In this document: positions 16,092 to 33,260 of the stretch, piece after piece
Layout: each line of letters starts with the position of its first letter
Position numbering within the stretch: the first letter of the stretch is position 1
NCBI GenBank assembly: GCA_027491215.1
Contig: JAIXWP010000028.1
Location: forward strand, 1-51,126
Length of the DNA: 51,126 nucleotides
DNA from: Flavobacteriales bacterium
GTDB lineage: Bacteria > Bacteroidota > Bacteroidia > Flavobacteriales_D > Sanyastnellaceae
Reading direction: 5' to 3'
Translations under genes and position numbers: made by a program
The notes under the pieces: model-generated
Database searches by the model: none
Seen by the model: only the letters and a program-made list of their open reading frames with translations
What the model was told of the DNA's origin: nothing

Positions 16092-17899
16092 ATCTTGACG
16101 GACGCAGAATAACCATTATTCTCATCGTTTGTGCTATAGGTATAATCTATGCACTGCGTCTGCTTTCCCTGCAAGTCTTGAATGACGAATGGAAAAATAG
16201 AGGTACCGCACTTACAGAAAAGGAAGTTATCGTTTATCCATCTAGAGGTTTGATCTATGATCGAAATGGAAAGCTCTTGGTAACAAATCAAACTGTTTAC
16301 GATTTGATGGTGTTGCCAAAAGATGTCAAACCATTTGACACGATTGCTTTCTGCGAATTGGTAAGTCTTACAAAGGAAGAATTGGTTTCTGCTCTGAAAA
16401 AGGCGGTGAGTTGGCCCAATGTGCGTTATAAACCATCACCTGTAATCAAACAAATTACACCTCCTGAATTCGCTCGTATTTCGGAGAACCTTTACAAGTA
16501 CCCTGGTTTTTTCGGCACCCCTCGTACACTCCGCACCTACCCACAAAGTATTGGTGCACTGCTACTCGGCGACGTGGCCGAAATTGATAAACGCGAAATG
16601 GACAAAAATCCAGACTATCGCAGAGGTGACTACATCGGAAAAAGTGGTATTGAAAAATCATATGAAAATGAACTGCGCGGAACGCGTGGAGTCAAATATG
16701 TGTTTCGTGACAACCTAGGTGTAGAGCGAAATGTAGCAGAAGGAGAGCTCGATATAGCAGCGGTGGAAGGAACAGATCTGATCGCTACAATTGATGCAGA
16801 ACTTCAGCGATACGGTGAAGAATTGATGGTGAACAAACGCGGTTGTATCGTGGCCATCGAACCTGCTACCGGTGAAATCCTAGCGTTAGTAAGTGCTCCT
16901 ACCTACGATCCTAACTTGTTGGTGGGACGCGCTCGTGGTCGCAATTTCAATTTGCTCAACACAGATCCTCAGAAACCATTGTTCAATCGCGCTACGCAAG
17001 CACAATACCGACCTGGTTCGATTTTTAAATTAGCACAATCGCTTGCTGCATTGCAAATCGGAGCCATCACTCCACAAACACGGATCCAGTGCAATAGAGG
17101 AATCATCGGATGTCACGGCAGTCACTCTTATGATGATTTGGAAATGGCGATCGTTCACTCTTGCAACCCTTATTTCCGAGGTGTGATGCAGCGCGTAGTG
17201 GAAGGAGATCGTGACAAAACAAGTCGTTTCAAAGATGCTCGTATCGGTTTGGATATATGGCAAGGTTACATCAAACGCTTTGGCTTCGGAAGTAATTTGA
17301 ATACAGATATTCCTGGTGTGAAATCAGGTCTTGTTCCAGGTGTTGCCTACTATGACAAGTGGTACGGCGAATTGCAGTGGGCATTCTCAACGATCTATTC
17401 ACTAAGTATTGGTGAAGGTGAAATGTTGATCACGCCAATTCAAATGTGTAACCTCGCGTGTATCATTGCTAATCGTGGCTATTATGTGCCACCACATACT
17501 GTAAAACAAATCGGAGTAGGTGGATTGCCAAGAGAAGAATATCGCGTGCGTTATGAGACCGGCATTGACACCGCTCACTTTACCACGGTGATCAACGCTA
17601 TGGAAAAAGTGGTGGGACCAGGTGGTACAGCAGGTCGAGTGAAATTGAAGGATATAGTTATTTGTGGAAAAACAGGAACGGTGCAGAATGAACCGAAAGA
17701 AGACCACGCCGTGTTTGTTTGCTTCGCGCCAAAGGTTAATCCGAAAATTGCGATGGCCGTGTATGTGGAGAATGCTGGATTCGGTGGTACTTGGGCGGCG
17801 CCTATCGCGAGCTTGATGATTGAAAAATACCTCAACGATACCACATCGAACAAGGCCGCGGAGAAATTATTACTTGAATCAAACTTCCTGAATCGATGA
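16088..17899 (+). CDS. mrdA: Penicillin-binding protein 2, elongation transpeptidase
   Basis: 603 residues with a GTG start that overlaps the mreD stop by 4 nt. There is one membrane anchor (about 8-30), the PBP dimerisation region with the PSRGLIYDRNG motif (51-61), and the transpeptidase domain with catalytic SxxK at S311-K314 (PGSIFK), SxN at S358-N360 (HSCNPYF) and KTGT at 528-531. It cross-links new side-wall peptidoglycan together with RodA. It ends in a 4-nt overlap with rodA. Confidence 0.95.
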   Translation: MNLDGRRITIILIVCAIGIIYALRLLSLQVLNDEWKNRGTALTEKEVIVYPSRGLIYDRNGKLLVTNQTVYDLMVLPKDVKPFDTIAFCELVSLTKEELVSALKKAVSWPNVRYKPSPVIKQITPPEFARISENLYKYPGFFGTPRTLRTYPQSIGALLLGDVAEIDKREMDKNPDYRRGDYIGKSGIEKSYENELRGTRGVKYVFRDNLGVERNVAEGELDIAAVEGTDLIATIDAELQRYGEELMVNKRGCIVAIEPATGEILALVSAPTYDPNLLVGRARGRNFNLLNTDPQKPLFNRATQAQYRPGSIFKLAQSLAALQIGAITPQTRIQCNRGIIGCHGSHSYDDLEMAIVHSCNPYFRGVMQRVVEGDRDKTSRFKDARIGLDIWQGYIKRFGFGSNLNTDIPGVKSGLVPGVAYYDKWYGELQWAFSTIYSLSIGEGEMLITPIQMCNLACIIANRGYYVPPHTVKQIGVGGLPREEYRVRYETGIDTAHFTTVINAMEKVVGPGGTAGRVKLKDIVICGKTGTVQNEPKEDHAVFVCFAPKVNPKIAMAVYVENAGFGGTWAAPIASLMIEKYLNDTTSNKAAEKLLLESNFLNR

Positions 17900-19221
17900 A
17901 GAATAGCCAAAGCATAGCACTTGGAAGAGTTGATTGGGGAACAGTCATCCTGTATGTTGTTCTTGTATTATTCGGGTGGATGAACATTTATAGCGCTGCC
18001 TATGATTCATCACAACCGATGATTTTGGATTTCGATAAAGAGTATGGAAGACAAGCTATTTGGATTTTGGTTTCTTTCTTTTTGGCGCTTTTTGTTCTGT
18101 ACGTTGAAGGTGATTTTTTCAATAAATTCTCTCCATTTATTTATGGGTTTTTTGTGCTACTTCTCGGGCTGGTCTTGGTAATCGGTAAAGAGGTGAACGG
18201 CGCTAAAGCTTGGTTTGGAGTAGGCGCTTTCGGTATTCAACCATCGGAGTTTTCTAAAATTGGCGTCAGTCTTTTATTGGCAAAATATATTTCTTCCACA
18301 GGAGCAAAGTTCAAAACATGGAAGACAAGAATTATCGCGGCAGCGATAATTGGCTTGCCTGCAGGACTTATTCTACTTCAACCAGACGTAGGGTCAGTAT
18401 TGACTTTTGTTGCGTTCATATTCGCTATGTATCGCGAGGGCTTATCGGGCAACGTTCTCATCATTGGCCTCGGTGCAATTGTATTCGGAGTACTCAGTAT
18501 TGTGAGCGGTGCAGGATCCATCGATTTCCCTTTCGCGGGAGAACAGAGCGGAATTTATTTGCTCATTCTCATTGTGGCGCTTTTGGCGATCGGATCATTA
18601 ATCGTGGTGAAGAATTTCATTGTTCCTCGAAATAGAAAAACGCTTTATTGGATCATCGGTATTTCTGCAACGGCGAGTATCATGTTTTCTTTTTCGGTGA
18701 GTTACATCGTAGAAAATGTGCTCGAAGGCCATCATCGCGAGAGAATTTATGTGATGCTGTCAATGCCCGTGGAAAGAGAAGGAGCTACCTATAATAGTGA
18801 AATGGCAAAAATCACGGTTGGCTCTGGAGGCTTTATCGGGAAAGGATTTTTGGAGGGTCCAATGACGCAGAATAATTACGTTCCTGAACAATGGACAGAC
18901 TTTATCTTCAGTGCTGTGGCGGAGGAGTGGGGTTTTATTGGAAGTATTGTAGTGATTGGATTGTTTGTCTATCTAATTATTCGAATCATTAACATGGCCG
19001 AGCGACAGCGCTCACAATTCTCGCGAGTTTATGGTTACTGTGTAGCGAGTATCTTATTTTTTCACTTGATGATTAATGTGGGGATGGTTATTGGATTGGC
19101 ACCTATCATCGGTATTCCATTGCCATTCTTCAGTTACGGGGGATCATCGCTTATGGGCTTTACGTTATTGTTATTTATCTTCCTTCGCTTGGATGCTGAA
19201 CGCTTAAGCGCATTCAGATAA
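17896..19221 (+). CDS. rodA: SEDS glycosyltransferase RodA
   Basis: 441 residues with about ten membrane segments. Family features include GAKAWFGVGAFGIQPSEFSK, LLQPDVGSVLTF and the C-terminal PLPFFSYGGSSLMGF. RodA polymerises glycan strands from lipid II as partner of PBP2. The length exceeds that of E. coli RodA (370) because of an expanded central region (about residues 195-260, with two extra hydrophobic stretches), a form seen in other Bacteroidota. The start ATG overlaps the pbp2 stop by 4 nt. Confidence 0.94.
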   Translation: MKNSQSIALGRVDWGTVILYVVLVLFGWMNIYSAAYDSSQPMILDFDKEYGRQAIWILVSFFLALFVLYVEGDFFNKFSPFIYGFFVLLLGLVLVIGKEVNGAKAWFGVGAFGIQPSEFSKIGVSLLLAKYISSTGAKFKTWKTRIIAAAIIGLPAGLILLQPDVGSVLTFVAFIFAMYREGLSGNVLIIGLGAIVFGVLSIVSGAGSIDFPFAGEQSGIYLLILIVALLAIGSLIVVKNFIVPRNRKTLYWIIGISATASIMFSFSVSYIVENVLEGHHRERIYVMLSMPVEREGATYNSEMAKITVGSGGFIGKGFLEGPMTQNNYVPEQWTDFIFSAVAEEWGFIGSIVVIGLFVYLIIRIINMAERQRSQFSRVYGYCVASILFFHLMINVGMVIGLAPIIGIPLPFFSYGGSSLMGFTLLLFIFLRLDAERLSAFR

Positions 19222-22445: not shown

Positions 22446-22781
22446 CTATGTCTTTTGAAATTTCAATGTCTTTACTTTTCCGCTCGCACCAGTAATCTGA
22501 ATAATGTAAATACCTCTGCGAAGAGAATCTACTGCATCCAAACGAACTGCTATACATGCATCGCCTTGTGTATCTGGTTTGATTTGAGAAATGATTTTTC
22601 CTGTAAGGTCTTTGATCACTACCGTAATTTCTTCGTGCACTGGCTCGTCAAATGTGAGCGTGGCTTTCGATTCTACTGGGTTTGGTGAAATAGAAGCAGT
22701 AGCAATTGGGTTATTGCTTTGGGCAATACCTGCTGCGCTTATCAATAGGGCGGTAAATAAGAATAGTATTTGTCTCTTCAT
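22446..22781 (-). CDS. Signal peptide plus T9SS sorting domain only
   Basis: 111 residues. After the signal peptide (cleavage near residue 20, AAGIAQ) only about 10 residues precede a complete type A sorting domain (ASISPNPVESKATLTF, VVIKDLTGKII, GIYIIQI, and a basic end). There is no independent passenger domain. It has its own promoter and terminator, so it does not look like a gene fragment. Possible roles are a small surface protein, a competitor or regulator of T9SS export, or a remnant; none is established. Confidence 0.85.
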   Translation of the reverse strand: MKRQILFLFTALLISAAGIAQSNNPIATASISPNPVESKATLTFDEPVHEEITVVIKDLTGKIISQIKPDTQGDACIAVRLDAVDSLRRGIYIIQITGASGKVKTLKFQKT

Positions 22782-22911: not shown

Positions 22912-23322
22912 TTAAAACTGCTTCAGAAAGATTTCTGGTGTAATTACTGAAATACTAGCCTTTTTGTAGTCCTTCACATTTCTAGTGATTAGAACGGTCA
23001 AGCCGTGATCTAGGGCACAAGAATATTGTAATGCATCTTCAAAATCACTGAAGTCTGAGGCAAGAGCAAGATCTATTGTCCTAGAGTCTACCTTAAGAAC
23101 ATTCACTAAGGTTTTAAATTGAGAAATAATCTGCCTAGAATGACGTGTGCTGTATTGTGAGCGCAGCACATAGTCAATGTTAGAGAAGGAAAGTGATGAT
23201 ACAAAAAGCTTAACCTTACTTCTATCCGCTAGCGAAAAAAGTATTTCAGCATGGGTGTTAAAGGGTTCCCTTCCTGATAAGAGATCAATACACACATCTG
23301 TGTCTACAAATGCTTTGATCAT
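22912..23322 (-). CDS. PIN-domain toxin (VapC-like)
   Basis: 136 residues. PIN-domain acidic residues are present: D7 in FVDTDVCIDLL, the central cluster in DFSDFEDALQY, and a C-terminal Asp in ITRNVKDY. These would bind Mg or Mn for RNA cleavage. The length is typical of VapC-type toxins. The antitoxin gene ends 1 nt upstream and both are read from the same promoter. The target (tRNA, rRNA or other) is unknown. Confidence 0.88.
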   Translation of the reverse strand: MIKAFVDTDVCIDLLSGREPFNTHAEILFSLADRSKVKLFVSSLSFSNIDYVLRSQYSTRHSRQIISQFKTLVNVLKVDSRTIDLALASDFSDFEDALQYSCALDHGLTVLITRNVKDYKKASISVITPEIFLKQF

Positions 23323-23323
23323 T

Positions 23324-23569
23324 CTACTTAGTGTATTTTTTTAGTATGCGCTTTTTGTATTCTGCTTTGGGATCAGCTGCACTGCTCAAAGATGCAACAC
23401 CAGATAAACTCCTAACAAGGGGTGTGATTTCTAGCGCATTCTGTTCTTGAGTGAGGAGGTTCAAATATGACTCTACAAGTTGCGAAAGACTAGTGTTCTT
23501 TTTTCTCGCATAAAGCTTTGCCTTTTCGATAATGTCCTCGTCTAGCTTAAGTGTGAGCTTTGTATTCAT
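23324..23569 (-). CDS. Antitoxin of the PIN toxin (DUF6364/ribbon-helix-helix type)
   Basis: 81 residues. The N terminus MNTKLTLKLDEDIIEKAKLY followed by ARKKNTSLSQLVESYL fits a ribbon-helix-helix DNA-binding fold: a beta strand and two helices, as in DUF6364 antitoxins. The C-terminal half (VRSLSGVASLSSAADPKAEY) would wrap the toxin. It precedes the toxin gene by 1 nt, the standard order, and a palindromic operator overlaps its promoter. Confidence 0.86.
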   Translation of the reverse strand: MNTKLTLKLDEDIIEKAKLYARKKNTSLSQLVESYLNLLTQEQNALEITPLVRSLSGVASLSSAADPKAEYKKRILKKYTK

Positions 23570-23619: not shown

Positions 23620-25698
23620 CTAAAACTGCCATCTCAATTGAACGGTCACATCACCGCGGCGATTGCCTGCAATTTCATTGGTGCCGCTGCTGATGACATT
23701 GCGATCTGTGTAAATCCATTGGGCGTAGCGTACCCAAAGATCTACGCCGCGCTTGATGTCCCACTTCACCAATCCATACATTCGCTGCCCTTGACCATAG
23801 TAACCCGGAATGCTGAATGCGTAAAGAACATCGGATTCGTAGGCGTAAATTCTTGTATCGTATGATGGGGTGTTAAACAACGCATAACGAACGTTCAAGC
23901 TGATTTTAGATCCCATCTTTTTCCAGATAACATCTTGATAGCACATGAATCCACTTGCTCTGCCCTCATTCTCTTTTTCATAAACATTCCATTCCAAACG
24001 GCTACGCATCTGCACGTTTGGGTGAGGTTGATAGGTAGCATTTACTCTAAAGTTTTGCTGTCGCTCTGGAACAGGATAATCAACCAATTCTCCTTCTTCA
24101 CCTGCATCCTCACTACCATTTCGCACGCGATAGCGGATATAGAAATCTTGCTTTTTATCAGGCTTGTAATTCAACTGAAATAAATAATCACTATTTCTTG
24201 AAGGTGCTTGCACATTAAAGCGCAACCATGGATAAACAATCTGATCACTGTACGCAGTCAAGGTCCAGCCTTTTGCAATGTTTGCTTCCATCCCCACAAA
24301 AAGACCACGTTCATTTTGCGGAGTCGTACTTTCTGCAAATACATTGAAATATTGAACTTGATAATCTTTTGAAAAATGACGATGCACAGCACTCACGGAA
24401 ATACGAGGGTGAATAGAGGCGATCATTCCATTCAACGCAGCTACGCCACCATTTGCACTTCGAGAAATTTCACCAAAGAAATTGAAGTTTTTAAATACTT
24501 TTTGATAATCAAATCCAATATTGGTATTCTCGCGACCAGAGAATCGATAGAGTTGATATAACTGAGCTCTCGGCTGCAAATCGCTCGAATATTCTAATCG
24601 TGCTGCTGTTAAGCCGGCGCTAAAAGTTCGTGTAGAATACTTAATATTTCCCGCATAAATTCTTTCGTCTATGGTATGCTTATCCGCAAGCTCGTTTGCG
24701 GTTCTATGAAAACCACTATTGAGTAGGCTTGATACTATGATATTGTCATCTGTAATAGTAGTATCTTCAATCGATACGACATTTCCATCCATTTTTTTTA
24801 TGGAAGCCAATGCAGTGATTTCAAATTTTCCTAGCGCTATTGTTGTACCCGCTCCGCGCAGATATAAACTTTCATTTACCGATGAATAGGGACGCAGTCC
24901 TTGTGCGTTCTTTTTAACGTTCATCACGAACGGAGATTTACCAAATCCTAATCCATTCCAAAAGGTAAGGCCTTGCCCGAACTGTGCTTGAAAGTCGCCA
25001 AGTGCAATAGCTTTTATGCGATTATTATTTCGGATAAATAAATGTGCGCTGTAAAAGTCAGGACCATTATTCAAACTTTCGCCCGCATCTTTTTCGAGAG
25101 TGAAGCCAGCGGAAATATTTTTGCGATAGGTGAAACGATATCTGCTGTACATATAATCCGGACTCCCTAGAAAATCCGCCGCCTCGCCCGATACCTCATC
25201 TGGCAAATAACCTTTTTGTTCTTGCAACGTTCTTCTGTAGCGCAAGAACAAATCGCTACTCCCTTCCTTCAAAATATTTTTCCAAGAAAAATCTTCAAGT
25301 AGGCCAGCAGCTTGCACCGTAACAAAAGGTTGAATGATGCGAATGGTATTAATGTCAAATCCACGAATCGATTGCAATTCATAAATACTGCGCAATGCTC
25401 CGAAGGTGGAAATGTGTTTTTGCAATGCGTTGATTTGAATATCTGTCAATAGATATAAATCACGCAAATCCTCGGCGCTTGCGCGATTTAGATTGATGGG
25501 GTGTTCGTAATAGTAACTTAGATCTTCAAATAAATTCGTGTAATCGAGTTCGACCGTTTCGTCGAGTGTGGACACAATTACTTCTATACGTTGCTCAATA
25601 ATATTCTGCTTATTCAAATCCTGATCAGGCTGTGCAAAAGCAATTGCGCTCGCGAGAAGCAAGACGAGTAATCCGAATATTTTTTTCAAGAAAACCAT
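23620..25698 (-). CDS. Exported ComEA-like helix-hairpin-helix protein with beta-rich C-terminal region
   Basis: 692 residues. Signal peptide 1-22 (LLASAIAFAQ). Residues about 67-125 form a tandem HhH region of the ComEA type (INLNRASAEDLRDLYLL, IYELQSIRGFDINTIR). The remaining 550 residues are rich in alternating aromatic/polar strands (FQAQFGQGLTFWNGLGF, FNVRYALFNTPSY-like segments) and end in RRGDVTVQLRWQF, with the terminal Phe typical of outer-membrane barrels. The architecture is known in Bacteroidota but uncharacterised. It overlaps the stop of the PorV-like gene by 1 nt (25698), so the two are one operon. DNA binding by the HhH part at the cell surface is an inference. Confidence 0.8.
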   Translation of the reverse strand: MVFLKKIFGLLVLLLASAIAFAQPDQDLNKQNIIEQRIEVIVSTLDETVELDYTNLFEDLSYYYEHPINLNRASAEDLRDLYLLTDIQINALQKHISTFGALRSIYELQSIRGFDINTIRIIQPFVTVQAAGLLEDFSWKNILKEGSSDLFLRYRRTLQEQKGYLPDEVSGEAADFLGSPDYMYSRYRFTYRKNISAGFTLEKDAGESLNNGPDFYSAHLFIRNNNRIKAIALGDFQAQFGQGLTFWNGLGFGKSPFVMNVKKNAQGLRPYSSVNESLYLRGAGTTIALGKFEITALASIKKMDGNVVSIEDTTITDDNIIVSSLLNSGFHRTANELADKHTIDERIYAGNIKYSTRTFSAGLTAARLEYSSDLQPRAQLYQLYRFSGRENTNIGFDYQKVFKNFNFFGEISRSANGGVAALNGMIASIHPRISVSAVHRHFSKDYQVQYFNVFAESTTPQNERGLFVGMEANIAKGWTLTAYSDQIVYPWLRFNVQAPSRNSDYLFQLNYKPDKKQDFYIRYRVRNGSEDAGEEGELVDYPVPERQQNFRVNATYQPHPNVQMRSRLEWNVYEKENEGRASGFMCYQDVIWKKMGSKISLNVRYALFNTPSYDTRIYAYESDVLYAFSIPGYYGQGQRMYGLVKWDIKRGVDLWVRYAQWIYTDRNVISSGTNEIAGNRRGDVTVQLRWQF

Positions 25699-26513
25699 TA
25701 GAAACCTTTAGGGCAATAGGATAATGCAATTTGTGGTGAAAACCCTAAGGCACTATGATAGGATGCCGATATGTCTGCTTTGAAATTTTCATTTCTCCAA
25801 CCAAAACCAAAAGCGCTTAGCGTTGGATTGGATGCAAAGCCAGCACGTACAACGAATGCGTCGATGATGAAATATTCGATGGCTCCAGAGCCAACTACTT
25901 TCTGCTGCGTTGTCTGTTGCACTTGTCCACTCAACTGAACTTTTTCAGAAAAAACATAAGTTGCTCCCATGCGCAGAGTAGACGGCGCTCTCTCATCATT
26001 GTAGTCTGCGATTTTAGCACGGTTCGCATTTTCGATGTGACCGGCAAGAATCAGTGATTTGTTTAGCATGTAACGAAATCCACCTTCAACAGAAAAAGCG
26101 CGACTTACTCCATAACCTTCAGCGATGCGTAGACTATGATAATTCATTTGTACACCCACCGAAAATTTTTCACCTAATTTCATCGCATACGCAAGACCCG
26201 ATTTTGCTTGGGTAAAAGCACTGTATCCAAAGCTTTGATAAGCTAATCCAAAGACACCTTTTCCTACCGGAGTGGCAACAGTAATTCCGCGGTCACCGAG
26301 TTCCTTGATCATGAAACGGTTTTGATAATACGCACCCGCAGTAAGTGATTTTAAATCTGCTAGACCAGCTTGGTTATGAAAAGTAGACCACTCATCATTA
26401 ATCGTTACGGATGTTCCTGCAAGGCCCGCTGCACGCGCTCCCTCGGCGCTTTGCGCAAACATCACAACCGAACATAATATGCCCAAAAGGGTAGTAAGAA
26501 TTTTATTGATCAA
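25698..26513 (-). CDS. PorV/PorQ-family-like outer-membrane beta-barrel protein
   Basis: 271 residues with a TTG start (the only start that keeps the signal peptide, MINKILTTLLGILCSVVMFAQ). The mature start AEGARAAGLAGTSVTINDEW followed by FHNQAGLA is the pattern of PorV/PorQ and FadL-like barrels. The rest alternates strands with aromatic belts. PorV proper shuttles T9SS cargo, but this protein is shorter (PorV is about 390), so it is a family relative and not PorV itself. It is followed with 1-nt overlap by the HhH barrel gene, suggesting that the two act together. Confidence 0.78.
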   Translation of the reverse strand: MINKILTTLLGILCSVVMFAQSAEGARAAGLAGTSVTINDEWSTFHNQAGLADLKSLTAGAYYQNRFMIKELGDRGITVATPVGKGVFGLAYQSFGYSAFTQAKSGLAYAMKLGEKFSVGVQMNYHSLRIAEGYGVSRAFSVEGGFRYMLNKSLILAGHIENANRAKIADYNDERAPSTLRMGATYVFSEKVQLSGQVQQTTQQKVVGSGAIEYFIIDAFVVRAGFASNPTLSAFGFGWRNENFKADISASYHSALGFSPQIALSYCPKGF

Positions 26514-26641
26514 GGCTAAAAAGAATAGGTGGTGAAAGTAGTTAAAAATCTTGATTCTTCTAGCCGGGGCTCATTACTGTTTTGGTTATGGTTAGGTTAA
26601 TTGTAAAGCTATTTCATGACGGGGCATTTTCCGTTTCTTCT

Positions 26642-26649
26642 TAACTTCG
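26642..26649 (+). promoter_or_regulatory. Putative -7 box TAACTTCG of the proline dehydrogenase gene
   Basis: One mismatch from TAnnTTTG, 4 nt before the ATG at 26654, again with an almost absent leader. Confidence 0.45.
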
Positions 26650-26653
26650 CTGC

Positions 26654-27838
26654 ATGGAACCTGCACCTATTTCGTTTGACAACACGGAAATTGCTTTCAA
26701 GGGCAAATCTGATAGCGACCTAAATCGATCATATTATTTATTCAAACTCATTGGAAATCCAAGTCTTGTGAAAGTTGGTGATGTGATGACCAACTTCGCT
26801 TTGGCACTTCATATTCCAATTGGGTGGGCAATTAAAGGAAATATTTTCAAGCAGTTTTGTGGTGGAGAAACCATCACTGAGTGCTCAAGAGCAACCAAAA
26901 TTCTCGATAAAGGAAATATTGGTACCATCCTCGATTATTCTGTAGAAGGTAAGGAGTCGGAAAAGGACTTTGATGCCACAACGGAAGAAACAATGCGCAC
27001 CATTCAAACTGCACACAACAATGATCACATTCCATTTTGTGTATTCAAAGTAACAGGTGTTGCGCGTTTTGCATTATTGGAAAAAATAAATGCAAAAGAA
27101 AAACTCATGGATGAGGAAATTGCTGAATGGCAGCGTGTGAGAGAGCGTGTGGATCGTATTTGTGGGTTGGCCGAAAAAACAGGAACTCCTGTATTTATTG
27201 ATGCAGAAGACAGCTGGATTCAAGATGCTATTGATGATTTGACAAATGAAATGATGGAAAAATACAATGGCAAAAAGGCTGTTGTTTACAACACCATTCA
27301 GCTATACCGTCATGATCGTTTAGCATTTTTGAAGAAATGCCATCAAGACGCAAAATCAAAAGGCTATTATTCGGGATACAAACTTGTACGCGGCGCATAC
27401 ATGGAAAAAGAACGCGCACGTGCAGCAGAGAAAGGATATCAGGACCCAATACAACCTAACAAGGAGGCGAGTGATCGTGATTTTAATTTGGCATTAGAAT
27501 ATTGCTTGGAGAATATTGATAATATTTCCATCTGTTGCGGCTCTCACAATGAGCAAAGCTCTATGCTTTTAGCAACTATGATGGATAAAAAGGGTGTTAG
27601 CAGAAATGATAAGCGCGTGTATTTCGCACAACTATTTGGGATGAGCGATCACATCAGTTTCAACCTCGCGCATGCGGGTTACAACGTAGCGAAGTATGTG
27701 CCCTATGGTCCAATTCGAGAAGTGATTCCTTATCTCATTCGCAGAGCGAAGGAAAACACCAGCGTTAAAGGACAGACGGGACGAGAACTAGGTCTTATCA
27801 TTAAAGAAAAGGAACGCAGAAAAAGCGAACGCAATTAA
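26654..27838 (+). CDS. Proline dehydrogenase
   Basis: 394 residues. FAD-dependent oxidation of proline to pyrroline-5-carboxylate, the first step of proline catabolism. Family signatures: VFIDAEDSWIQDAID, the barrel strand YKLVRGAYMEKERARA and the C-terminal YGPIREVIPYLIRRAKEN with the paired Arg that bind the proline carboxylate. It is a monofunctional enzyme without the P5C dehydrogenase domain, which must be elsewhere. There is no signal peptide. Convergent with the TauE/SafE gene 3 nt away, without room for a separate terminator. Confidence 0.94.
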   Translation: MEPAPISFDNTEIAFKGKSDSDLNRSYYLFKLIGNPSLVKVGDVMTNFALALHIPIGWAIKGNIFKQFCGGETITECSRATKILDKGNIGTILDYSVEGKESEKDFDATTEETMRTIQTAHNNDHIPFCVFKVTGVARFALLEKINAKEKLMDEEIAEWQRVRERVDRICGLAEKTGTPVFIDAEDSWIQDAIDDLTNEMMEKYNGKKAVVYNTIQLYRHDRLAFLKKCHQDAKSKGYYSGYKLVRGAYMEKERARAAEKGYQDPIQPNKEASDRDFNLALEYCLENIDNISICCGSHNEQSSMLLATMMDKKGVSRNDKRVYFAQLFGMSDHISFNLAHAGYNVAKYVPYGPIREVIPYLIRRAKENTSVKGQTGRELGLIIKEKERRKSERN

Positions 27839-27841
27839 TTG

Positions 27842-28231
27842 CTACAATCCTGCTTTCACGGAATTATAGATCATTCTAATTGACATGTAAAGCAAGAAGA
27901 TTCCGAAAACGAGTTTTACTTTTTGCTCTGAAATTTTCAATGCCCACTTGGAACCAAAATAACTTCCGAGAACGAAGGCAAGTCCCATAATGATGACATA
28001 TTGAAAGTTGACATTGCCTGTCTTGTAATAATTGATCACACCAAGAATTCCTACAGGGAACATCAACAAAGCCAAGCTCGTTCCTTGAGCAGTCATTTGA
28101 CTTGCACCCAAAAGAAATACAAGCCCAGGTACGATTATCATTCCACCGCCTACACCAACAAAGCCGCTCAAAAGACCTGCTACTAGGCCTATCATTGCTA
28201 GAATCAGAATGCTGGATGTTGTCATGTCCAT
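27842..28231 (-). CDS. TauE/SafE-family membrane permease (short form)
   Basis: 129 residues from the ATG at 28231. The frame can start at 28273 (14 more residues, MKALTFGQ...), but that start lies close to the divergent gcvH promoter and adds a non-family polar N terminus; the choice is not certain. There are about four membrane segments and the TauE/SafE signature GFVGVGGGMIIVPGLVFL with MTAQGTSLALLMFP. Full-length members have two such halves (about 250 residues); this one has one half and may dimerise. The substrate is probably a sulfur-containing or other small anion by family analogy only. Confidence 0.8.
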   Translation of the reverse strand: MDMTTSSILILAMIGLVAGLLSGFVGVGGGMIIVPGLVFLLGASQMTAQGTSLALLMFPVGILGVINYYKTGNVNFQYVIIMGLAFVLGSYFGSKWALKISEQKVKLVFGIFLLYMSIRMIYNSVKAGL

Positions 28232-28282
28232 GTTTTTTTGAAATAGATTTTGGCCGAAAGTTAAGGCTTTCATCTTTTATCC

Positions 28283-28290
28283 TATTTTTG
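28283..28290 (+). promoter_or_regulatory. -7 box TATTTTTG of gcvH
   Basis: Exact TAnnTTTG, 22 nt before the gcvH ATG. Confidence 0.6.
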
Positions 28291-28312
28291 GCGACCAAAT
28301 AAAAGGACCACA

Positions 28313-28690
28313 ATGAATTTTCCTGCTGAACTTAAGTACACAAAAGACCACGAGTGGGTGCGCATCGAAGGTGATGTAGCAACTGTTGGCATCACTGATT
28401 TTGCTCAAGGTGAATTGGGTGATATCGTTTTCGTTGAAATCGAAACACAAGGTGAGAGCCTTGAGGAGCACGCAATCTTCGGAACAGTAGAAGCTGTTAA
28501 AACCGTTTCTGATTTGTTTATGCCGGTGGCTGGAGAAGTTATTGAAGTGAATCCAGGTTTGGAAGACAATCCTGCTGCAGTAAATGAAGATCCATATGGA
28601 GCAGGTTGGATGATTAAAGTGAAACTTAGCGCTGGAGCTGATCTATCGGGCTTGATGGATGCAGATGCTTACAAAGCAATTGTAGCTTAA
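28313..28690 (+). CDS. gcvH: Glycine cleavage system H protein
   Basis: 125 residues, the usual size. The lipoyl-attachment lysine is K63 in [10 protein letters not shown], and the surrounding folds ([44 protein letters not shown]) are typical. It shuttles the aminomethyl group between the P and T proteins, whose genes are not here. A VanZ-like gene follows after 6 nt. Confidence 0.96.
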
Positions 28691-28696
28691 TTCCAG

Positions 28697-29089
28697 GTGA
28701 AAAACATATTTAGATATTTGGCCGTCCCAATCATTTGGGCGGCCATTATTTTTTTCGTCTATAGCATTCCTGGAGGGGATATCGTTTATCAGGACTTATG
28801 GAGTCTTCTTAAGTTTGATAAACTCGTACATATGGGAATTTTTGCACTTTGGGTAAACATGCTCATAGTCGCATTCAAGAAACAATCGACATCACGCCCA
28901 CTCAAGCAAAACGCCCGTCTTATAGCGGTTTCATTTGCCTTAGCATATGGTGGCATTCTTGAATTTTATCAAAGCAAATGGTTCATAGATCGCACCACAG
29001 ATCCATATGATTTCATTGCTAATACATTGGGCGCTTTTATCGGACTATTGGTATTCCGAATCATCTATGGAAAGTGCGCTGCATATTGA
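28697..29089 (+). CDS. VanZ-like membrane protein
   Basis: 130 residues with a GTG start 6 nt after gcvH. Four hydrophobic segments, with the VanZ family residues DKLVHMGIFALW and GILEFYQ, then DPYDFIANTLGAFIGLLVF. The biochemical role of VanZ domains is unknown (VanZ gives teicoplanin resistance in enterococci), and association with gcvH in Bacteroidota is frequent as I recall. The 3' end overlaps by 45 nt the end of the convergent NadR-like gene. Confidence 0.85.
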   Translation: MKNIFRYLAVPIIWAAIIFFVYSIPGGDIVYQDLWSLLKFDKLVHMGIFALWVNMLIVAFKKQSTSRPLKQNARLIAVSFALAYGGILEFYQSKWFIDRTTDPYDFIANTLGAFIGLLVFRIIYGKCAAY

Positions 29090-29587
29090 TTCAAACGCGC
29101 GCTCAAATCTTTTCTCTCCAACACCTACTATTTCAATCGAAGGAAGTTTGTTCTCAAGAATTATTTTTTTGTACTTCTGAAAAAGAAAGTCTCTATCATT
29201 AGGATTACTGCGCAATGGATCGGGTTCCCACGGTAAATCAGGGGTGCACAAAGCAGTGACATGAGGTCGATGCTTTTTTAAATAGGATTCTATTTCATCC
29301 CATTTTTCTCCGAAAACATAATCTACCCAAACGGCATAGATGATTACGTCACCATCTAAAATTAGATAATTGGCTGGAGTAGCTTGGTGGTCATCCCAAA
29401 GTTCTATTTGGCCCACTAACATCCTTTTTACGTCTTCTTTCGTGTAAGTGCCATCGGGTAAATGCTCTTCCATATATGTGCGAGCAAATTCAGGGCAGAG
29501 AATATTATTCTTCAGTCGCTTGGAGAGATAGGTCGCAAACTCTGATTTGCCGCTGCTTTCTGGGCCTGTGATTGATATTATTTTCAT
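29045..29587 (-). CDS. NadR-like nicotinamide riboside kinase (AAA_28-type ATPase)
   Basis: 180 residues. Walker A GPESSGKS (about 8-15), then PEFARTYMEEH and LDGDVIIYAVWVDY, the pattern of the ribosylnicotinamide-kinase domain of NadR. The NMN adenylyltransferase and repressor domains of E. coli NadR are absent, so it would be a stand-alone kinase. Its start overlaps the end of the pnuC-like gene by 4 nt, so transport and phosphorylation of nicotinamide riboside are coupled in one operon. Other nucleoside kinases of the P-loop class cannot be excluded. Confidence 0.85.
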   Translation of the reverse strand: MKIISITGPESSGKSEFATYLSKRLKNNILCPEFARTYMEEHLPDGTYTKEDVKRMLVGQIELWDDHQATPANYLILDGDVIIYAVWVDYVFGEKWDEIESYLKKHRPHVTALCTPDLPWEPDPLRSNPNDRDFLFQKYKKIILENKLPSIEIVGVGEKRFERAFESICSALSIDDSEYQ

Positions 29588-30153
29588 GTAAAAATTCCTA
29601 AATAAAAATATCCATCAAGGCTCATCACTAGGTAGAGGAGATACATCAGAGAACTCAACACCATTTTTCTTTTGTAGTACATGAAGATGGAAATGGCATT
29701 TATGAAAATGAAATAAAGCCAGTTTTCATGAATGAAAAACATCATCAGAATTGTTCCAATGATACCATATACGGTGGTGACACTATCAAGGTAGGGCAAT
29801 TGAGCATCTGTCTTCTTTTTTAGAAAATAGCCAGAAATAAAAACAATAACTGCCCCCGATGAAATGAGGATTAGATGATTGGTGCCGGAAAACTCACGAG
29901 CGCTGAATCCTGTGTTTGAGAAGTTGACCAACCCGATGATCGTCGAGAGTATATAAATGATTTGCAAAAAGGTTTCTGCGTAAAGTTTCCTTCTAAAACA
30001 TAATATACCGAGAAGTAGTGGCCCCAACAACCCAAAAATGAAGCATTCTTTTACTCCTCTTAAATAAAGAAAAGTAAAAAGCAGATTAAAGGTCACTGCC
30101 AAGACCTCAAGGACAAGCTCTCTGCGATTAGATAAAATTGACAGTACGGCCAT
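29584..30153 (-). CDS. pnuC: PnuC-family nicotinamide riboside transporter
   Basis: 189 residues from the ATG at 30153 (MAVLSILSNRRELVLEVLAV). A longer frame from 30297 is rejected because it crosses the -7 box and the divergent regulatory region. About seven membrane segments. The stretches YAETFLQIIYILSTIIGL and ENWLYFIFINAISIFMYYKR fit PnuC. It would take up nicotinamide riboside for NAD salvage, trapped by the kinase encoded next. No riboswitch structure was recognised upstream. Confidence 0.86.
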   Translation of the reverse strand: MAVLSILSNRRELVLEVLAVTFNLLFTFLYLRGVKECFIFGLLGPLLLGILCFRRKLYAETFLQIIYILSTIIGLVNFSNTGFSAREFSGTNHLILISSGAVIVFISGYFLKKKTDAQLPYLDSVTTVYGIIGTILMMFFIHENWLYFIFINAISIFMYYKRKMVLSSLMYLLYLVMSLDGYFYLGIFT

Positions 30154-30157
30154 GCGG

Positions 30158-30165
30158 CGAAAATA
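30158..30165 (-). promoter_or_regulatory. Putative -7 box TATTTTCG of pnuC
   Basis: One mismatch from TAnnTTTG on the minus strand, ending 4 nt before the ATG at 30153; supports the short start of pnuC. Confidence 0.45.
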
Positions 30166-30254
30166 CGAAAGGACTCCTTTTACGCTCGTGACCCTAAAAT
30201 AACAGCCTGTAGGCTGATTTTGAGTAACTAAGTTGTGTGTGTGAGAAATATTGT

Positions 30255-30262
30255 TAAATTCG
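30255..30262 (+). promoter_or_regulatory. Putative -7 box TAAATTCG of the M43 protease gene
   Basis: One mismatch from TAnnTTTG, 46 nt before the ATG at 30309. Confidence 0.35.
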
Positions 30263-30308
30263 CTTTCCCGCCCTTGATTTAGTAACTTAATAAACAAACA
30301 AACAGATT

Positions 30309-33260
30309 ATGAAAAGAAGACTTCTACTTCTTTTGACAGCGTTTGCTCTCTTCCAAGCAGCTTCTGCGCAACGTATTTGCGGCACTACAGAATCAGAGCA
30401 ATTTGTACGTTCAAATGATGAAAAGTACGATCTACGTCGTCAGCAAATTGAAAACTACACCAATGATTTTATCGCTCACGGAGGTGGTCTAGACCGCGCT
30501 CTTGTTACGATTCCAGTCGTGGTACACGTAGTTTGGAATACTGCTACTGAGAACATCAGTGATGCGCAGGTTCAATCTCAAATCGATGTGTTGAATGCTG
30601 ACTTTAGAAAATTAAATGCTGATGCTTCTTCAGTTCCTAGCGCTTTTGCTGGACTTGCAGCGGATGCTAATATCGAGTTTTGTCTTGCTACTGTGGATCC
30701 AAACGGCAATCCAACAAATGGTATCACAAGAACTCAAACAGCTACAACTGCATTTGGTACCAATGACCAAGTGAAGTCTGCTTCAACTGGTGGGGTGAAT
30801 GCATGGTCAAGAGATCAATACTTGAATATTTGGGTGTGTGATATCAGCGGTGGTATTCTTGGATACGCGCAGTTCCCTGGTGGAGCGGCTAGCACTGATG
30901 GTGTTGTTTGCGATTATCAATATTTCGGTACTAACGGAACGGCTACTGCACCTTTCAATAAAGGTCGCACTGCTACTCACGAAGTAGGCCACTGGTTAAA
31001 CCTATTCCACATTTGGGGTGATGACGGTACTGGCTGTACTGGTTCTGACCAAGTTGCGGATACACCAAACGCTGCTGGACCGAACTACGGTTGCCCAACG
31101 TTCCCTAATGTTACTTGTTCAAATGGTCCTAATGGTGATATGTTCATGAACTACATGGACTACACTGACGATGCTTGTATGTATATGTTCTCGAATGCAC
31201 AGGCTGCACGTATGGCTGCTTTGTTCGCTACAGGTGGATTTAGAGCTCCATTGCTCAATTCTACAGCTTGCGGACCAGTAAGCAATGTATGCGCTGTTCC
31301 TGGTGGTAGAGCAACATCTGCTATCACAGCTGCTGGTGCAACATTCACTTGGACGGCTTCTGCTTCTGCTGCTTCTTACAATGTAAGATATAAAGCTTCA
31401 ACTGCAACAGTTTGGACTAACGTGACTGGATTAACTTCTGCTTCATACACTGTGGCTGGTTTAACAGGATGTACTGCTTATGAGTGGCAAGTTCAATCAG
31501 TTTGCGATGCTACTACTTCTAGTGCGTTCTCTGCATCTACAACATTCTCTACTACAGGTTGCGCTCCATCTTATTGCACTTCTGTAGGTTTGAGCACTGC
31601 TGATGAATTCATCAATCGCGTAGTTATTGGAACAATTGATAATACTAGCGGTAACAATAGCGGTTACGGTAACTTTACTTCGCTTGCTACCACTCTTTCT
31701 ACTAATAATAGCTTTGCATTCAGCGGAACTCCTGGTTATACTGCTTCAGCATTTACTGAATTCTGGAGAGTTTGGATTGACTTCAACGCAGATTTAGACT
31801 TTGACGATGCAGGTGAATTAGTTTACACTTCTGCTGGTTCTACTACTACTGTGAACGGTACTATCGCTATTCCTTCAACCGCGACAATCGGTTCTACACG
31901 TATGCGTGTAAGCATGAAGTACAACGCAGTTGCAACTCAATGCGAATCATTCCAATATGGAGAAGTTGAAGATTACACTGTAAATATTATTGCAGGTACT
32001 GCTCCAACTCCATGTAACGCTCCAACAGGATTGGCAATTTCTGGAATCTCACAAAATGGTGCGACAGCTTCATGGGCTGCTGCTAGCGGTGCGGTTTCTT
32101 ACAACTTCCAGTTTAAGCTTAACTCAGCTACTACTTGGACAACTGTAAGCACAACGACCCCGTCTTATACATTCACCGGTCTTACTGCTGGAACAACTTA
32201 CAACACTCGTGTTGCAACAGTTTGCTCTAATGGTACTAGTGCTAATAGCGCACAAGTGAACTTCACAACTACTGCAGCTCCAACTTGCGGAACTCCTACA
32301 GGATTGGCTACTTCAGGTATTACTACTTCAGGTGCGACATCAACTTGGACTGCGGTAAGCGGTGCTGTTTCTTACAACTTCCAATTCAAGCTAAACACAG
32401 CTACTACTTGGACTACTGTAAGCACTACTTCTAACACTTACACATTCACGGGTCTTACAGCTGGAACAACTTACAACACACGTGTTGCAACAGTTTGTTC
32501 TTTCGGTACTAGTGCAAATAGCACACAAGTGAATTTTACAACTACTGCAGTGGTAGCTTGTACAGACTCTTACGAGACGAACAATACATATAACCAAGCA
32601 AAGTCTATTGCTGTTAACTCAAACATTACAGCGGTTATTAGCTCTTCAACTGACAAGGATTACTTCCGTTTCTCTACGACTACTTCGAATAGAAATATCA
32701 AGATTGATTTGACTAACCTTCCTGCCGATTATGATGTGATTCTTTACAACCCTAGCGGTGTGCAGGTAGGAATCTCTCAAACTTCTGGAACTGCAAATGA
32801 AACAATCATCTATAACAACGGTCCAGTAGGTACTTACAGACTTCAGGTTTATGGTTTCAATGGAGCGTTTAATAGCACCTCATGTTACACATTGCGCGCT
32901 AACCGCAGCAATACAGCATTCCGTGTTGCAGCTGAAGGTGTTGTTATGGAAGAAGGTGAAGAAATGGTTGAGTCTGAAAAGGATGCATTTGTAGTAGAAA
33001 ATGCTGTAATCAATACAGTAAATGTTTATCCTAACCCAACATCAGATAACATCGATGTGACATTTGAAAGCTCTGAGAACACAGTTGTTAGAATTCAGAT
33101 GTTTGATTTGATGGGTCGTGAAATTCACAACTCTCAAATGCAAGTGGTAACTGGATTCAATATCACCAATATTGATATGAATGAATTTGCTCGTGGTTGC
33201 TACACTATGATGATTACAAACGGAGATTCAAGAGAATCTATCCGAGTGATCAAGCAGTAA
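30309..33260 (+). CDS. Secreted M43 zinc metalloprotease with GEVED, Fn3, PPC and T9SS sorting domains
   Basis: 983 residues. Signal peptide 1-20 (LFQAASA). The protease domain, about 60-320, has [11 protein letters not shown] at 224-234, the M43B (cytophagalysin-type) version of HExxHxxGxxH, and the Met-turn MNYMDY. It is followed by a fibronectin III domain (about 336-422), a GEVED domain (about 424-560, ending [10 protein letters not shown]), two nearly identical Fn3 domains of 91 residues each (569-659 and 660-750), a PPC domain (about 752-870; [15 protein letters not shown]) and a type A T9SS sorting domain ([16 protein letters not shown] to IRVIKQ). It is an extracellular endopeptidase by family, probably zinc dependent, for degrading proteins outside the cell. 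A bidirectional terminator follows. Confidence 0.94.
32013..32558 (+). repeat. Tandem 273-nt duplication of an Fn3-coding segment
   Basis: Two head-to-tail copies (32013-32285 and 32286-32558) encode Fn3 domains that are almost the same residue for residue, with DNA-level similarity including shared synonymous choices. This indicates a fairly recent duplication within the protease gene. Confidence 0.85.

Follow-up and report, generated by a model that had tools for sequence, protein, structure and literature searches.

Among described systems, the pairing of PorV with SprA, the T9SS translocon, comes closest to the gene pair analysed here. PorV is stated to bind CTDs in the accessible passages of two reports (PMC7712824; PMC5562754), a PorA–PorV–Sov complex is likewise mentioned in excerpts of the literature, and Fjoh_0547, a CTD protein of 112 aa, is said in such passages to need neither SprA nor PorV for its secretion (PMC7712824). 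The pair encoding P0002 and P0001 (Table 1) resembles this system in that a small PorV-family barrel protein is paired with a large outer-membrane protein, and in that its neighbours include a CTD protein in its own clade and porD in other classes. It differs from SprA–PorV in that the large protein has about 690 aa as against about 2,400 for SprA, in that it has an HhH domain and also occurs without T9SS, and in that P0002 stays under the PorV and PorQ equivalog cut-offs. With ComEA the pair has in common that an exported protein bears a domain of the HhH_3 type, which probably faces the periplasm, whereas P0001 lacks the GxG hairpins and has a long barrel-like region and a PorV-like partner. 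BamG, a subunit of the Bacteroidota BAM complex described as a barrel of the FadL type in complex with BamA (PMC12578637), offers a further likeness, P0002 being a candidate small barrel of the FadL/PorV type that may form a comparable complex with a larger one; the BamG model is, however, matched only weakly, and by only 6 of 33 relatives of P0002. Finally, GspK of type II secretion is a secretion protein with an HhH-like domain, and its model T2SSK_1st is matched by 6 of 27 relatives of P0001, although weakly and over a short stretch (best E 0.003). No description of the pair was found in full-text searches of an open-licence library (without most subscription papers and all preprints), in line with an earlier note on this DNA, which knew of no characterised system with this pairing.

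Table 1 Features of the locus in the window (the whole stretch of 51,126 nucleotides that was analysed).
Feature	Position	Strand	Remarks
PorV-family outer-membrane barrel protein P0002 (predicted)	25698..26513	-	271 aa, TTG start, first gene
HhH-barrel protein P0001 (predicted)	23620..25698	-	692 aa, ATG start, second gene
HhH_3-like domain, residues 66-127 of P0001	25318..25503	-	HHH_3 match
Barrel-like region, residues 135-692 of P0001	23623..25296	-	inferred from sequence; terminal Phe identical in 27/27 relatives
CTD-only protein	22446..22781	-	111 aa, made up of a signal peptide (by eye) and a T9SS sorting domain of type A, without a passenger

The two reading frames have base 25698 in common (TAATG), on the minus strand, the overlap of 1 nt being the one that the earlier note had given, and both proteins begin with a stretch that, judged by eye, looks like a signal peptide. 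Among 60 relatives (genomes of the same order, the source genome included), 48 have the large gene and 45 have its small partner; both occur together in 45 genomes, the large gene alone in three, the small gene alone in none and neither in 12 (Fisher p 3e-10, relatedness ignored). A later profile detects the small gene in G042 as well, a genome counted here as having the large gene alone. The genes are adjacent on the same strand with the small gene first in 42 of the 45 genomes with both; two of the other three have them on different contigs and one has them 15.6 kb apart. At loci from across the phylum where the partner is the immediate upstream ORF, the gap lies between -19 and +29 nt in 22 of 23 cases, with start codons chosen mechanically. 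A scan of genome contigs for relatives found one. The pairing of P0001 and P0002 is thus a genuine, widely conserved unit, and the claim of an outer-membrane unit of two genes, one PorV/PorQ-like and one for an HhH-bearing, barrel-like protein, is supported.

As to the small protein, P0002 matches the PorV_fam model (NF033709) with 48.7 bits (E 8e-13; curated cut-off 90), and all 33 aligned relatives match it at E<=0.1. A profile of these 33 relatives finds the sequence of the solved PorV (6h3i_F) at E 9e-8, and the single sequence of P0002 gave no match in the PDB at E<=1. The score to T9SS_OM_PorV is 17.5 bits, far from the equivalog cut-offs for PorV and PorQ (250 and 220 bits), and T9SS_PorQ is absent from the NCBIfam matches of P0002 at E<=1. 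By its matches, P0002 is accordingly classed as a distant PorV-family protein and, by the cut-offs, as neither PorV nor PorQ proper. Its 12 amphipathic strand-like stretches, compared with 5.8+/-1.8 in shuffled sequences (maximum 11), give fair support for a predicted barrel; AlphaFold2 run on P0002 alone returned no usable model (mean pLDDT 31.6). The PorV-like gene of one genome (G229, contig C7, 1321226-1322026) has one in-frame TAG.

The long C-terminal part of P0001 is likewise predicted to form a barrel, for which its 24 amphipathic strand-like stretches (16.9+/-2.7 in shuffles, maximum 24) give weak support. Searches of Pfam and NCBIfam brought no convincing name for the region of about 560 residues after the HhH domain, a search of solved structures with the P0001 profile gave nothing beyond weak hits to HhH domains (best E 0.075), and AlphaFold2 on P0001 with one relative gave no usable model (mean pLDDT 30.5). 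DUF6029, considered on account of a GDFxxxFG-like motif, was rejected as a relative of the barrel region by profile–profile comparison (hhalign probability 6.8%); the source genome encodes a DUF6029 protein on contig C14, about 6 kb from sprA (16611-18305 and 24702-31895). Wzi gave a match at E<=1e-10 in 1 of 60 genomes of the class. Two apparent fusions (an ORF of 1042 aa at L110 and one of 926 aa at L115) are taken to be false upstream extensions of the ORF.

Among the 60 relatives, SprA (60/60) and ComEC (56/60) are too common to be informative, and the distribution relative to T9SS was read from a phylum sample of 247 genomes, in which the large gene was sought with a profile of 27 relatives. 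The HhH protein is present in 186 and SprA in 190: both are found in 129 genomes, the HhH protein only in 57, SprA only in 61 and neither in none. An HhH protein confined to genomes with SprA would be expected of a T9SS component, and its presence in the 57 SprA-negative genomes shows the large gene to be independent of T9SS; 54 of these 57 belong to one family, f28. Conversely, the HhH protein is missing from all 26 sampled genomes of family f17, every one of them SprA-positive, a lineage-wide absence. Loci were examined in 73 of the 186 HhH-positive genomes, comprising the best-scoring ones and a chosen spread. Among these, 36 of the 44 SprA-positive genomes have a PorV-like gene next to that of the HhH protein, in 15 families, and none of the 29 SprA-negative ones does, 26 of which are from f28. 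A better PorV-like profile, run on 40 genomes, brought adjacent partners to light in G122, G229, G236, G252 and G288 and placed a partner somewhere in 16 of 18 genomes positive for both SprA and the HhH protein (exceptions G247 and G044) and in 1 of 10 that are SprA-negative and HhH-positive; 11 genomes without the HhH protein gave no partner match above 43 bits. With the SprA-negative hit as query, partners were found in 9 of the 57 SprA-negative genomes, all of one genus, and in the comparable ones the partner is not adjacent to the HhH gene. G120 and eight more SprA-negative genomes have the partner, which rules out that it strictly requires T9SS; the PorV-like partner therefore tracks T9SS strongly and not strictly, in a sample whose SprA-negative members come from three families. 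What emerges is an uncharacterised pair, kept by many of the sampled genomes of the whole phylum.

The pair adjoins T9SS genes in two different ways. The first is through porD, whose product is, in the accessible part of one report, a T9SS component binding PorW (PMC8754138). Among 40 loci spanning up to 18 kb, porD and the PorV-like gene are divergent neighbours at 15; these are 15 of the 18 SprA-positive loci outside the class of the source genome, and none of the 15 SprA-positive loci within that class or of the 7 SprA-negative loci shows the arrangement. The porD gene neighbours the PorV-like gene in the stretches from six further genomes (G093, G176, G188, G208, G228 and G260), in the last of which it still adjoins the PorV-like gene with the large gene about 5 kb off; all six of the porD proteins tested exceed the equivalog cut-off of NF052317.

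The second is through the gene for the CTD-only protein, which in the window scores 32.5 bits to PF18962 (cut-off 27) and 34.3 bits to TIGR04183 (type A CTD, cut-off 23). Among 22 genomes of family f1, viewed mostly with a 1.5 kb flank, eight have such a gene next to that of the large protein (the window, G001, G002, G009, G010, G022, G028 and G029), and all eight proteins pass the TIGR04183 cut-off; against the loci examined, the profile of this protein gave nothing else scoring above 37 bits. In G009, G010, G022, G028 and G029 the CTD-only gene shares the strand of the large gene and begins some 100 to 300 nt past it, and in G001 and G002 it is on the opposite strand; the large gene of G022 is divided over contigs and reads with stops. 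Stretches of 12 to 20 kb from G003, G016, G020 and G021 do not contain the CTD-only gene, and the contig of G018 ends 410 nt downstream, too soon to judge. The gene is kept in G009, G022 and G028 though other neighbours seen in the window are missing there; in G001, G002, G010 and G029 it comes with nearby SprT-like and/or ABC-transporter genes that the window has too. The link is thus partly one of shared local synteny and is limited to one clade. Between the HhH-barrel and CTD-only genes of the window lie a small ORF and, downstream of it, a PIN-domain gene (22912-23569, minus strand), together of toxin–antitoxin-like appearance; this PIN pair was not seen between the two genes in the other seven genomes, where there is no room for it or the order is different.

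Taking these observations together, we tentatively propose, with a probability of roughly 0.4, that the pair is an uncharacterised two-barrel outer-membrane complex with a periplasmic HhH adaptor, cooperating with T9SS where it is present. In the predicted mechanism, P0001 would be the large barrel in the outer membrane, its HhH domain facing the periplasm as a protein–protein adaptor, and P0002 would dock on it in the manner of PorV on SprA/Sov. In cells with T9SS the pair would work alongside that system, the PorV-like barrel taking or holding a CTD-bearing protein at the surface, and in the clade of the source genome this client may be the dedicated CTD-only protein encoded nearby; a role of the pair would also persist without T9SS. 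The link to T9SS is drawn because of the PorV kinship, the divergent porD neighbour and the CTD-only neighbour, and the main reason for the proposal is the parallel with CTD binding by PorV, the PorA–PorV–Sov complex and Fjoh_0547. The co-inheritance and linkage of the two genes favour it as well. For these proteins, the barrel topology, the physical complex, the periplasmic HhH domain, the CTD binding and the T9SS role are all predicted. Running counter to the proposal are the 57 of 186 HhH-positive genomes without SprA, nine of which keep the PorV-like gene, the 61 genomes with SprA and without the HhH protein, the failure of the porD link at all 15 SprA-positive loci of the own class and the restriction of the CTD-only link to one clade. 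If the pair does work with T9SS, that system would gain a further uncharacterised module in the outer membrane, equipped with a PorV-like partner of its own and accompanied in one clade by a CTD-only neighbour, and the pair may provide a handle on the placement of small CTD proteins.

A bolder version, which we regard as improbable, is that CTD proteins find in this pair another station at the outer membrane, apart from SprA–PorV, in which a PorV-like shuttle docked on the HhH barrel receives or exports small CTD-only proteins, with a core older than, or independent of, the T9SS link. Two proteins of this small CTD kind, Fjoh_0547 and PorA, are placed at the surface or in the medium without SprA/Sov in the excerpts available of the relevant reports.

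A rather less probable alternative to the two-barrel complex cooperating with T9SS, yet the best placed of the rivals, is an envelope-biogenesis module unrelated to T9SS, such as a barrel-assembly accessory or a device for lipid or polysaccharide handling, with partnering of the kind known for BamG and BamA. The retention of the HhH protein in SprA-negative genomes and the weak BamG matches of some small-barrel relatives (best E 5e-5) would both fit such a role. Matches to PorV are, however, stronger than those to BamG, the partner is rare where SprA is missing, and the neighbours porD and CTD-only protein speak against it. Moreover, the recurring neighbours identified at the pair loci, for some clusters only, are porD and housekeeping genes, with no BamA, BamD, BamH or other assembly or lipid gene among them. 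If the pair has no T9SS role, it would represent an unexplained, widely conserved envelope complex.

The earlier note had instead guessed at a surface DNA receptor or uptake pore, on account of the HhH domain. In P0001 this domain matches Pfam HHH_3 with 23.3 bits (E 6.7e-5; cut-off 27), rising to 28 bits in a six-frame search, and the model also picks up 21 of 27 relatives at E<=0.1; the score to the ComEA model TIGR01259 is 16.2 bits (cut-off 152.35). In the HMMER alignment, LLT and GFD of P0001 stand opposite the two hairpins of the ComEA chain, both GIG. The earlier note had named a lack of DNA-binding residues as counting against its guess, and this lack is seen here in part. A full GxG hairpin is kept in none of the 27 close relatives, in 24 of which the last hairpin glycine is replaced by Asp; both hairpins are kept at none of 40 loci, and the second GIG hairpin at six, all outside the own class. 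At one locus (L129) nothing aligned to the HhH domain and at another (L097) it looks degenerate. Because the domain is conserved and yet has lost the glycines that contact DNA, we would rather read it as a protein adaptor. The domain follows the signal peptide and precedes the barrel-like region in P0001, and in two families a PorV-like protein has it at the C-terminus; both termini of outer-membrane barrels lie in the periplasm, which would place the domain there and not at the surface. Its net charge (mean -1.2 over 40 rows) was dropped as a test, the ComEA chain being likewise acidic (-2, counted by hand).

A ComEA-like role, in which DNA passing one of the two barrels would be pulled in by the HhH domain from within the periplasm, is accordingly doubtful, in spite of the kind of domain involved, the six loci with one GIG hairpin and the 39-48 bits that the large or small protein of other lineages reaches against ComEA models. 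ComEC accompanies the HhH protein in 46 of 48 relatives, but it is also present in 10 of 12 without it and so tracks nothing. The Riemerella HhH gene described as essential for transformation in a screen of this member of the Bacteroidota, with its HhH domain at residues 236-301 and predicted to be periplasmic, has a layout unlike that of P0001, as far as the accessible part of its report goes (PMC8459023). The source genome has, besides, another HhH protein with a GIG loop, encoded by a 170-aa ORF with two HhH repeats that is open at the start of contig C24 and appears to be a better ComEA candidate than P0001. This ORF (L165, 3-512) has an apt-like neighbour, which we take to encode an adenine phosphoribosyltransferase. 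With the hairpin glycines lost, a periplasmic placement probable and this other GIG protein at hand, the proposal of a DNA receptor is not supported and, on the sequence evidence, weakened rather than refuted; the pair looks more like protein-export or surface-anchoring machinery than a DNA-uptake pore, and naming these proteins 'ComEA-like' from the HhH domain alone is probably misleading.

Least convincing is a pair for small-molecule or polymer transport, with a FadL/TodX-like small barrel and a large porin plugged or adapted by the HhH domain: the small-barrel profile matches TodX and TbuX at E 0.03-0.17 and Porin_4 is matched by 1 of 27 large-protein relatives (E 7e-4), but PorV is a far better match and the recurring neighbours, so far as their clusters were identified, contain porD and housekeeping genes.

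Returning to the proposed complex with a periplasmic HhH adaptor, the HhH domain is tied to the pair by two genomes of different families, G136 and G144, in which the PorV-like protein has a C-terminal HhH domain of its own and its gene stands away from that of the HhH barrel. This arrangement occurs in 2 of 128 PorV-like ORFs (duplicates counted), and the domains of the two proteins (L160, 4327-5502; L161, 4445-5611) are of the ComEA type.
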